Of a DNA stretch of 64,000 nt, positions 11,741-17,301 are shown piece after piece. Under the pieces are notes generated by a model that saw only the letters and a list, made by a program, of their open reading frames with translations, was not told the DNA's origin and did not search any database. Every line of letters starts with the position of its first letter. The stretch's first letter is position 1. Source of the stretch: Burkholderiales bacterium (GTDB lineage: Bacteria > Pseudomonadota > Gammaproteobacteria > Burkholderiales > Burkholderiaceae_C); contig JACRPO010000009.1 in assembly GCA_016223165.1 (NCBI GenBank), positions 248,001-312,000 of the forward strand, read 5' to 3'. Made by a program: the position numbers and the translations under genes.

Positions 11741-12577
11741 TCAGACCAGCCACGCGGCGCGGTAGTCCTTCGCATACTGCGCAAAGCTGCCCGGCGCGCG
11801 GCCGAGGATGGCCTGCACCGCGTCGGTGGTGCGCTCGGCATAACCGGCCTTGAAGAAGCCGAGGATGAGCACCAGGAACTCGGCGTAGGGGCGCGGCACC
11901 TGCGCGTCGAGCAGGCCCTTCAGCATCGCCTCGGGCGTGATGTCCTCGAAGCCGAGCGTGCGGCCGGTCTCGCGCGACAGGATCGCCGCCACCTCGTGAT
12001 GGTCGAACGCCTCGGCGCCGGTGAGGTCGAAGTCGCGGCCGTCGAGGTCGCTGCGCGAGAGCAGTTCGGCGGCCACGGCGGCGATGTCGCGCGCATCGAC
12101 GAAGCTGCCCTTGGCACGGCCCACCGGCAGGAAGATCGCGCCCTGCTCGCGCAGGCCGTGCAGCCAGAAGGTGTTGAAGTTCTGCATGAACCAGTTCGGG
12201 CGGATGACGTTCCACGCCAGCCCCGAGCGCTCGAGCGCGAGCTCGGCCTTGCGCAGCGGCGCCGCCTCGTCGGCATTGGCGCCCATGGCCGACAGCAGCA
12301 CCACTTTCGCCAGGCCGCGCTCGCGCGCCTCTTCGATGAGGGGCACGAGCAGCGCATCCTGCTGCGCATGGCCGGGCGGCGAGAGCAGGAAGGCGCGCGT
12401 CACGCCTTCGAAGGCGGCCGCCAGGCCCTGCCGCGTGGCGAGGTCCACCTGCACCTGGCCGGGCTGCGTGGGCGCGCGGTGCGTGCTGCGCACGACCTCG
12501 TGGCCGCGGGCGGCGAGCAGGCGCGCGAGTTCGGAGCCGACGGTGCCGCTGGCACCGATGACGAGGGTCTTGGACAT
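11741..12577 (-). CDS. NmrA/atypical short-chain dehydrogenase-like NAD(P)-binding protein
   Basis: A 278-residue cytoplasmic protein with an N-terminal Rossmann motif, LVIGASGTVGSELARLLAARG (GxxGxxG at about residues 8-14), and the atypical-SDR pattern of NmrA/azoreductase-like proteins (FLLSPPG, LSAMGAN, NVIRPNWFMQNFNTFW). Family members act as quinone or NADPH-sensing reductases and redox regulators. The ATG at 12577 begins the Rossmann strand directly. It is divergent from an AraC-type regulator, with a palindrome at the regulator start, so it is a plausible target of that regulator. Confidence 0.8.
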   Translation of the reverse strand: MSKTLVIGASGTVGSELARLLAARGHEVVRSTHRAPTQPGQVQVDLATRQGLAAAFEGVTRAFLLSPPGHAQQDALLVPLIEEARERGLAKVVLLSAMGANADEAAPLRKAELALERSGLAWNVIRPNWFMQNFNTFWLHGLREQGAIFLPVGRAKGSFVDARDIAAVAAELLSRSDLDGRDFDLTGAEAFDHHEVAAILSRETGRTLGFEDITPEAMLKGLLDAQVPRPYAEFLVLILGFFKAGYAERTTDAVQAILGRAPGSFAQYAKDYRAAWLV

Positions 12578-12637
12578 GGGGTGTTCCGTGTGGGTGACGA
12601 AGGCCTCCAGTCTGGCCGCCCTCATCCGAACCAGGAA

Positions 12638-12664
12638 TGGACATGAATCCGCAATTCATGTCCA
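12638..12664. promoter_or_regulatory. Perfect palindrome over the AraC-type regulator start
   Basis: Two perfect 11-base arms (TGGACATGAAT, spacer CCGCA, ATTCATGTCCA) lie between the divergent NmrA-type and AraC-type genes and cover the candidate regulator start codons at 12643 and 12658. The position fits an operator for autoregulation and control of the divergent gene. AraC proteins more often use direct repeats, so the binder is uncertain. Confidence 0.6.
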
Positions 12665-13686
12665 ATCGTCCGGTATCGCGGACCCATCACCAACCCGCGG
12701 CACCGGACCCGAACCCGCACCCGCCCCCCTTGGACCTGCTCACCGACATCCTCCAGCAAGCCGGCCTGCGCCGGCGCCTGCTCGACCTGCGCCGACTCTC
12801 CGCCTCGACGGCGCTGCGCTTTCCCTGCGACAAGAGCATCGGCCTGCATGTCGTGGCCCAGGGCACCGTGCACCTGCACGCGCCGAAGCTGCCCGCGCCG
12901 CTGGCCCTGCAGGCCGGCGACATCGCCGTCATGGCGCGCGGCTGCGTGCATGTGCTGAGCCAGCACACCGACCCCGCGGCGGTGCCGGTCGAGCCGATCG
13001 GCACCTTCAGCGACGCGCGTGCGCTCGAGGAGGGCGGCGCGGACGCCGCTGCGCAGGCGTCCGTGGTGAGCGGCGCCTACCAGCTGTGGAATGCGCCGCT
13101 GCACCCGCTCTTCGCCGAGATGCCCGACTGGTTCGTGCTGCGCGCCGACGAGCTGCCCAAGCTCGGCCCGCTCGCGCTCACCGTCGGCCTGCTCGACGAG
13201 GAGGTGCGCCATGGCGGCCTCGGCGCCGAGACCATCGTGCACGGGCTGCTCGACGTCGTCTTCACCTACCTGCTGCGCGAGATGGTGAGCCGCCTCGGCC
13301 AGGGCGGCGCCGGCTGGGGCCAGGCCGTGCGCGACCCGCAGGTGCGCCGCGCCGTGACGCTGATGCACACCGACAGCGCGCACCCGTGGACGCTCGGCGA
13401 GCTGGCCCGCCGCGCCGGGCTCTCGCGCACGACGCTCGCCGAGCGCTTCCGCGCCGCGATGGGCGACACGCCGCTCAACTACCTGCGCACGCTGCGCATG
13501 CAGAAGGCGATGCGCCTGCTCGGCGAGACCGACCGGCCCCTCGAGAGCGTCGCCGTCGAAGTGGGCTACCAGGACGCCTTCAGCTTCTCGAAGGTCTTCA
13601 AGCGCACCGTCGGCATCGCGCCGCGCGAGTTCCGCCGGCAGGACCTGGCGGCGGAAGACGACCCCTGGCGGTTCAAGGTGGGCTGA
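12643..13686 (+). CDS. AraC-family transcriptional regulator with cupin sensing domain
   Basis: A 347-residue regulator. Residues about 30-200 are a cupin-type ligand domain (LHLHAPKLPAPLALQAGDI, then LLDVVFTYLLREM), and the C-terminal 100 residues are the double helix-turn-helix of AraC (TLGELARRAGLSRTTLAERF; VAVEVGYQDAFSFSKVFKR). ATG at 12643 is chosen because AGGA lies 6 bases upstream. ATG at 12637 is too close to it, ATG at 12658 lies inside the palindrome, and a TTG at 12730 would match typical family N-termini. The 35 residues before the cupin are Pro-rich. Divergent NmrA/SDR partners are frequent for this family, and the regulator probably activates that gene. Confidence 0.85.
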   Translation: MNPQFMSNRPVSRTHHQPAAPDPNPHPPPLDLLTDILQQAGLRRRLLDLRRLSASTALRFPCDKSIGLHVVAQGTVHLHAPKLPAPLALQAGDIAVMARGCVHVLSQHTDPAAVPVEPIGTFSDARALEEGGADAAAQASVVSGAYQLWNAPLHPLFAEMPDWFVLRADELPKLGPLALTVGLLDEEVRHGGLGAETIVHGLLDVVFTYLLREMVSRLGQGGAGWGQAVRDPQVRRAVTLMHTDSAHPWTLGELARRAGLSRTTLAERFRAAMGDTPLNYLRTLRMQKAMRLLGETDRPLESVAVEVGYQDAFSFSKVFKRTVGIAPREFRRQDLAAEDDPWRFKVG

Positions 13687-13949: not shown

Positions 13950-14096
13950 GGTATCCCCTGGTCGGCGATCGTCGGCATGCGCAATCGCCTGGTGCACGCC
14001 TATTTCGACATCGACGCCGACGTCTTCTGGACAGCAGCGACGAAGGAGATTCCCGCGCTGCTGCCGCGACTGCAGGCGCTGGCGGCGAGCGACTGA
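13950..14096 (+). pseudogene. C-terminal fragment of a HepT-like (DUF86) toxin
   Basis: The frame ending at 14096 reads GIPWSAIVGMRNRLVHAYFD, matching the conserved end of HepT/DUF86 proteins, including the RNxxxHxY active-site motif (RNRLVHAY). HepT is the ribonuclease-like toxin partner of MNT nucleotidyltransferases. The first two thirds of the gene, and any MNT partner next to it, are absent, so it is a remnant. The rest of 13687-14318 holds only the ParD-like fragment and short GC-rich repeats. Confidence 0.65.
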
Positions 14097-15657: not shown

Positions 15658-17301
15658 TCAACGCAGCCGGAAGCCCGCGTAGCCGTTCGCGGCCACCTCG
15701 GCACATTGCTCGGCATAGGCCGGGAAGCCGCCGACCAGCGCCATGAAAACGCGCGGCTTGCCGGGGATGTTGGCGCCCAGGTACCACGATTCGCAGCCGA
15801 GGAAGACCGTGTGCCGCGCCAGCTCGAGCATGTGCGCCATCCAGGCCGCCTCGGCGTCCTCTTCGGCTTCGATGCTCTTGTGGCCTTGCGTGTCGAGCCA
15901 GGTGATGCAGTCGCCGATCCAGTCGACGTGATGCTCGATCGACAGGATGACGCTCGTGAACGCGGCCGTGCTGCCGGCGCCGGCGACGTGGAAGAGGTTG
16001 GGGAAGCCGGCCGTGCCGAGGCCGAGATAGTTGAGCGGGCCGCCGGCCCACTTGTCCTGGATGCGCAGGCCGCCGCGGCCCTGCAACGGCAGGCGCATCA
16101 GCGTGCCGGTGACGGCGTCGAAGCCGGTGGCGAGCACGAGCGCGTCGAGCTCGTGCTCGCGCCCGCCGGCGACCACGCCGCGCTCGGTGATGAACTCGAT
16201 CGGCCGGCCGCCGCCGCTCACGTCCACCAGCTCGACCTGCGGCAGGTTGAAGGTCTCGTAGTAGCCGGCGCTGTCCACGCACAGGCGCTTGCAGCCGATG
16301 GGGTAGGTGGGCGAGAGGCGCGCCGCCACCTCGGGGTCGCGCACCGTGCTGCGGATCTTGCCGCGCACGAATTCGGCCGCCAGCGCGTTGGCGCGCTCGT
16401 CGATCATGAGGTCGTAGAAGGTGCCGAGGAAGGCGAAGCCGCCGATGCGCCAGCGCGCCTCGAAGCGCGCCTCGCGCTCCTCGGCGCTGGCGGCGAGCGC
16501 CGACTTCATGTGCGGCGGGTGTTCGCTGCCGAAGCCGGTGCGCATGGCGCGCGAGCGGGCGCGAAAGCCCGCGTAGTCGGCCTTGACGCGCCGTTCCCAC
16601 TCGGCATCGAGCGGGCCGTTGTGCGCCGGCACCACGTAGGCCGGCGTGCGCTGGAAGACGGTGAGGCGGCGCGCCTGCTTCGCGATTTGCGGGATCACCT
16701 GCACGCCGGATGAACCGGTGCCGATGACGCCCACGCGCTGGCCGCTGAAGTCGACCGCGCCCTGGTCTTCATGCGGCCAGGCGGCCGTGTGCAGCACGCG
16801 GCCCTTGAAGCGCTCGAGGCCCGGGAAGGCCGGCATGTACGGCGTCGAGAGCGGCCCCGAGGCCATGACCATGAAGCGCGCCGCGAGGCACTGCTCGCTG
16901 CCGTCGGCAGCGCGCAGCGTCGCCTGCCAGCGGGCCAGCGCCTCGTCCCAGCGCGCCGCCACGAGGCGGGTCTCGAGCCGGATGCGGTCGCGCAGCGCAA
17001 AGCGGTCGGCGACATGGTTGGCATAGCGCAGCAGCTCGGGCCGCGCGGCGTAGCGCTCGTTCCAGTGCCAGGCCTGCTGCAGTTCCTCGGAGAAGGAGTA
17101 CGAATACTCGAGGCTCTGGACGTCGACGCGTGCGCCGGGGTAGCGGTTGTGGTACCAGGTGCCGCCGACGCCGGGCGCGGCATCGACCGCGAGCGCGCGC
17201 AGGCCGAGCGTGCGCGCCTTGTGCAGCATGTACAGGCCGCCGAAGCCGGCGCCGACGACGAGCACGTCGAGCCCTTCGCCGGCGGTGGCTTGGCTCGACA
17301 T
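15658..17301 (-). CDS. Flavin-containing (Baeyer-Villiger type) monooxygenase
   Basis: A 547-residue FAD/NADPH monooxygenase. It has an N-terminal FAD-binding motif VVGAGFGGLYM (about 16-26), the GGTWYHNRYPGARVD stretch typical of cyclohexanone and phenylacetone monooxygenases, the Baeyer-Villiger fingerprint FKGRVLHTAAWP, and a second nucleotide motif, VGVIGTGSSGVQV, for NADPH. The C-terminal ATGFD motif is present (VLATGFDAVTG). It would convert a ketone to an ester or lactone; the natural substrate is unknown. It starts 30 bp after the TPR gene and is probably co-transcribed with it. Confidence 0.88.
   Translation of the reverse strand: MSSQATAGEGLDVLVVGAGFGGLYMLHKARTLGLRALAVDAAPGVGGTWYHNRYPGARVDVQSLEYSYSFSEELQQAWHWNERYAARPELLRYANHVADRFALRDRIRLETRLVAARWDEALARWQATLRAADGSEQCLAARFMVMASGPLSTPYMPAFPGLERFKGRVLHTAAWPHEDQGAVDFSGQRVGVIGTGSSGVQVIPQIAKQARRLTVFQRTPAYVVPAHNGPLDAEWERRVKADYAGFRARSRAMRTGFGSEHPPHMKSALAASAEEREARFEARWRIGGFAFLGTFYDLMIDERANALAAEFVRGKIRSTVRDPEVAARLSPTYPIGCKRLCVDSAGYYETFNLPQVELVDVSGGGRPIEFITERGVVAGGREHELDALVLATGFDAVTGTLMRLPLQGRGGLRIQDKWAGGPLNYLGLGTAGFPNLFHVAGAGSTAAFTSVILSIEHHVDWIGDCITWLDTQGHKSIEAEEDAEAAWMAHMLELARHTVFLGCESWYLGANIPGKPRVFMALVGGFPAYAEQCAEVAANGYAGFRLR

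Follow-up and report, generated by a model that had tools for sequence, protein, structure and literature searches.

The window analysed in this work, the whole stretch of 64,000 nucleotides, contained a gene for an AraC-family regulator and a gene for an NmrA-like reductase in divergent orientation. The intergenic region between them harbours a perfect inverted repeat, which lies within an element shared with related loci. The features considered are the following:

11741 to 12577, minus strand: NmrA-like NAD(P)H-binding reductase, the predicted target (Pfam NmrA/NAD_binding_10; relatives in the PDB)
12609 to 12614, minus strand: predicted -10 hexamer of the reductase promoter, CAGACT
12632 to 12637, minus strand: putative -35 position, weak, TTCCTG (from sequence and a 17-bp spacer)
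12636 to 12671, unstranded: conserved element, a predicted operator, consensus AATGgnnnnnAnTnCannnTTCATGTCCAnnCGTnC (35-locus alignment, motif model and column information)
12637 to 12650, unstranded: putative half-site 1, ATGGACATGAATCC, adjoining the reductase promoter
12638 to 12664, unstranded: inverted repeat with perfect 11-bp arms, whose dyad is not kept among relatives
12658 to 12671, unstranded: putative half-site 2, ATGTCCAATCGTCC, adjoining the regulator gene and in direct repeat with half-site 1
12730 to 13686, plus strand: AraC-family regulator with N-terminal Cupin_6 and C-terminal HTH_18 domains (Pfam; start inferred from relatives)

The regulator (318 residues) belongs to the Cupin_6 subfamily of the AraC/XylS family. 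Its N-terminal sensing domain exceeded the gathering score of Cupin_6 (PF12852, E 1.6e-30), and its C-terminal tandem-HTH domain matched HTH_18 (E 2.9e-24) and HTH_AraC (E 6.6e-17) in Pfam. Two cysteines within Cupin_6, Cys33 (present in 36/36 orthologs) and Cys72 (31/36), are possible sensing or ligand residues and might take part in redox or metal sensing. The top NCBIfam match among named regulators was RclR, a reactive-chlorine regulator; the assignment was rejected, with a score of 86.7 bits as compared to an equivalog cut-off of 400 and with different neighbour genes. Relatives of the reductase with a solved structure in the PDB include SimC7, triphenylmethane reductase, and YtfG.

The divergent arrangement was found in all 39 loci checked, window included (in six of them the pair is read on the opposite strand), with the reductase start lying about 97-185 bp away from that of the regulator. 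The related loci were drawn from 24 genome contigs, 13 species of the same genus, and one other genome of the order. Among 61 relative genomes, the 14 that carried an ortholog of the regulator were also those that carried one of the reductase; searches at the order, class, and phylum levels added a single ortholog (L084), thus reflecting a patchy distribution of the pair. One genome (G019, contigs C4 and C127) carried the pair in two copies. The pair also appeared in L004, L012, L015, and L021, loci that are labelled as Acidobacteria, Asaia, Lysobacterales, and Cyanobacteria MAGs, where either horizontal transfer or mis-binned contigs would account for its presence.

The inverted repeat at 12638-12664 reads TGGACATGAAT-CCGCA-ATTCATGTCCA, with no mismatches between the arms and a spacer of five bases, exactly as given in the preliminary description. 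In the window, perfect arms of at least 11 bp with a spacer of at most 10 occurred in three places, whereas first-order Markov copies of the window contained from 0 to 6 such repeats (mean around 1.5), so that a bare inverted repeat of this kind is statistically unremarkable. A perfect 12-bp inverted repeat at 16130-16160, within an ORF (15658-17301, minus strand) whose product looks by eye like a flavoprotein monooxygenase, is probably a chance occurrence in GC-rich coding DNA. Other copies of the palindrome, which had been suggested as something to look for at further promoters, were not found in the 7.3-Mb genome when up to three mismatches were allowed.

Comparison with the related loci gave a different picture of the same bases. 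After removal of duplicates 36 loci were left, and the 36-bp element aligned without gaps in all of them except L004, where a one-base insertion separates its two halves. Identity to the window was 71% in the element (35 loci) in contrast with 35% in the adjacent spacer, and columns A2, T3, T13, and C15 were conserved at 92-97%. When the columns of the sequence-weighted profile were compared pairwise, with significance obtained from column shuffles, a direct repeat at an offset of 21 came out well ahead of every other offset (it scored +4.1, the runner-up -6.1; P = 0.0002, 35 loci), and this result was unchanged after removing the most numerous sequence group. The half-sites follow the pattern ATG-N8-TNC with a period of exactly 21 bp, and the window keeps these boxes completely (6/6 core matches). 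Half-site 2 was better conserved than half-site 1, its final 7 bp falling beyond the reported palindrome. Two direct half-sites spaced by about 21 bp are the layout of a class II operator, to which the alignment would assign the element.

The dyad, for its part, behaved as independent columns would. No inverted axis exceeded the shuffles (P = 0.80, 35 loci), the axis of the reported palindrome itself giving P = 0.07. The mean number of matches over the 11 dyad pairs was 4.94 vs. 5.03 expected from independent columns, with every pair at about its expected value, which indicated that there is no covariation. The palindrome was therefore ruled out as a conserved unit. Its retention in relatives, on which the preliminary description had staked its interpretation, was limited to 3 of 35 sites with at least 9 of the 11 pairs (11 in the window, 10 in L027, and 9 in L003), and the nearest relative, L002 (83% identical), keeps only 7. 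In other loci the left arm takes the form TGCATGAAAT, which breaks the dyad and leaves the direct repeat intact. The conserved dyad to be expected if a symmetric dimer bound a palindromic operator was not apparent in the alignment, and the mirror symmetry of the window copy seems to be largely accidental, a coincidence of sequence within a direct-repeat operator. Column frequencies predict around 0.4 sites with nine or more pairs, as compared to the three observed; this slight surplus of dyad-rich sites persists, along with the insertion in L004, as a point against our preferred interpretation.

On the reductase side of the element, two plus-strand bases, A 12609 and T 12613, were conserved at 97% each (34 loci); read on the opposite strand, they would be the T6 and A2 positions in a -10 hexamer. 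A scan of 12560-12760 with the sigma-70 consensus gave nothing at threshold, so that it is conservation that points to this hexamer. The distance from the predicted -10 to the element is 21 bp, and a 17-bp spacer would place the weak -35 against half-site 1. With a transcription start predicted near 12602, about 7 bp beyond the -10, the element would span approximately -34 to -69 of the putative reductase promoter, where class II activators of the XylS type are known to bind. The bases GaAC at 12628-12631, in the spacer of this predicted promoter, were also highly conserved (A 12630 at 97%); they lie outside both half-sites and both hexamers, are left unaccounted for by the interpretation that we favour, and count against it. 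On the regulator side, a TATAAT follows within two bases of the element in L017 and L018, and the ATG of the regulator likewise stands just after it in L003, L025, and L027, which suggests that binding there should hinder expression of the regulator.

We consider it highly probable that the element is the direct-repeat operator of the adjacent AraC/Cupin_6 regulator itself, through which the reductase would be activated and the regulator probably autorepressed, the palindrome being incidental. What the comparison of loci establishes is that the element is conserved and built as a direct repeat of 21 bp, that the gene pair is constant, and that the -10 is conserved; binding by the adjacent regulator, the direction of regulation, and the involvement of an effector we infer. 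A dimer of the regulator, in one orientation or the other, would fill the two 14-bp half-sites, which at a period of 21 bp (two helical turns) would lie on one face of the DNA. Half-site 1 would abut on the -35, a weak one, in the promoter of the divergent reductase gene, and this class II position suggests that the regulator, once its cupin domain has sensed an effector, probably activates the reductase. Half-site 2 would cover the promoter or start region of the regulator gene and probably mediate autorepression. The preliminary description was right in that a protein-binding operator probably lies beside the AraC-type gene. The element has no further copy in its own 7.3-Mb genome, where half-site 2 with three mismatches allowed gave no more matches than a reversed-pattern control; the site being unique, the regulator looks local.

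Several known systems resemble this arrangement. The period of araI1-I2 is 21 bp, and E. coli AraC makes use of DNA looping. The predicted operator shares with that system the divergent regulator and target and the direct half-sites, and it would likewise be bound by one dimer at the -35; the sensing domain here is Cupin_6. The half-sites of araI1-I2 are TAGC-N7-TCCATA (PMC4514859). The site of XylS at the Pm promoter of the TOL plasmid, TGCA-N6-GGNTA-N6-TGCA-N6-GGNTA (PMC4514859, PMC5481539), likewise has its half-sites in direct repeat, with a period of 21 bp, beside the -35 of the activated promoter, as predicted here; box sequences and target genes differ, and activation is established for XylS whereas for the present regulator it is a prediction. 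Direct-repeat operators were also described for MekR (CACC-N5-CTTCAA-N6, 21 bp) and MtlR (22 bp; PMC4514859), again with different sequences and targets. The predicted operator is of an ordinary AraC/XylS type, and it is the gene pair that is so far undescribed: a literature search of incomplete coverage returned no paper in which an NmrA gene stands next to one for an AraC-family regulator. What the alignment adds is a predicted DNA code for the Cupin_6 AraC/NmrA-reductase pair, which is distributed patchily in Burkholderiales and a few other bacteria.

Among the alternatives, the one that survives best, although still improbable, is that the AraC regulator binds the copies of the window and its close relatives as inverted sites, by rotation of flexibly linked DNA-binding domains, the dyad being functional in this clade. 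The three sites with 9-11 dyad pairs are in its favour, and there are parallels in two papers, one treating an inverted-repeat site of the AraC-family protein SAV742 (PMC5107987) and the other a swap between direct and inverted repeat binding through domain rotation in ArdK (PMC9723621). Against it, the direct-repeat boxes are complete in the window too, and the family as a whole lacks a dyad signal (P = 0.80). We give a still smaller chance to a variant in which, within the clade of the window, a functional palindrome was superimposed on an ancestral direct repeat of 21 bp, offering two binding geometries to one dimer; if true, domain rotation would act as a switch, the direct geometry activating the reductase and the inverted one repressing the regulator.

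The different dimeric repressor put forward in the preliminary description, taken here as a symmetric protein of the TetR, MarR, or GntR type that acts on the palindrome to control the regulator gene, we find very unlikely. The perfect arms of the window and the 10/11 and 9/11 pairs of L027 and L003 speak for such a protein, but dyad matches equal the independent-column expectation at every pair, L002 keeps 7/11, the palindrome has no other copies in the genome, and conservation runs 7 bp past it on one side only, with a direct-repeat structure. As relatives share a 21-bp direct repeat of the kind bound by AraC-type dimers, no separate repressor is needed. A single striking palindrome can thus conceal a direct repeat, and the comparison of relatives alone tells them apart.

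Translational control had also been proposed, with a bound protein blocking the start codons or an RNA fold hiding them. ATG codons occur at 12637, 12643, and 12658, all sharing the frame of the AraC ORF; those at 12643 and 12658 do lie inside the repeat, as previously stated, but their role as starts was not borne out. Relatives begin at ATGGACCTGCTC..., matching TTG 12730 of the window, and L002 starts with ATGGACCTG... at the position of this codon. From these alignments TTG 12730 is likely the start of the regulator; ATG 12658 is a minor possibility, since the window holds no ATG between 12658 and 12730. We read ATG 12637 and ATG 12658 as operator bases, the conserved first boxes of the two half-sites; a period of 21 bp, or seven codons, brings both into one frame. 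Of the 35 loci, only 6 have the second of these ATGs, the downstream one, open and in frame with the regulator, whereas frame by itself would give one in three. Start codons in the element were ruled out as a conserved feature, and a block of translation there by a bound protein is not supported. Likewise, a start codon kept in frame inside a stem, as a translational operator would present, was not seen among these sequences. The least credible reading of all is an RNA hairpin that spans the start codons and so masks the start in the mRNA of the regulator: the RNA of the window does fold (-16.3 kcal/mol, z = -4.1), as does that of L003, but L002 and L011, two of the three relatives folded, did no better than shuffles, which excludes the hairpin as a conserved feature, the ATGs are out of frame in most relatives, and the TATAAT of L017 and L018 would start transcription downstream of the element.

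Downstream of the regulator, positions 13962-14093 of the plus strand encode a 44-residue piece from the C-terminus of a HepT-like ribonuclease, matching positions 82-119 of the 120 in the PF01934 profile (E 6.4e-11). No intact gene was seen around it, and the fragment looks like the remnant of a decayed HepT/MNT toxin-antitoxin system.
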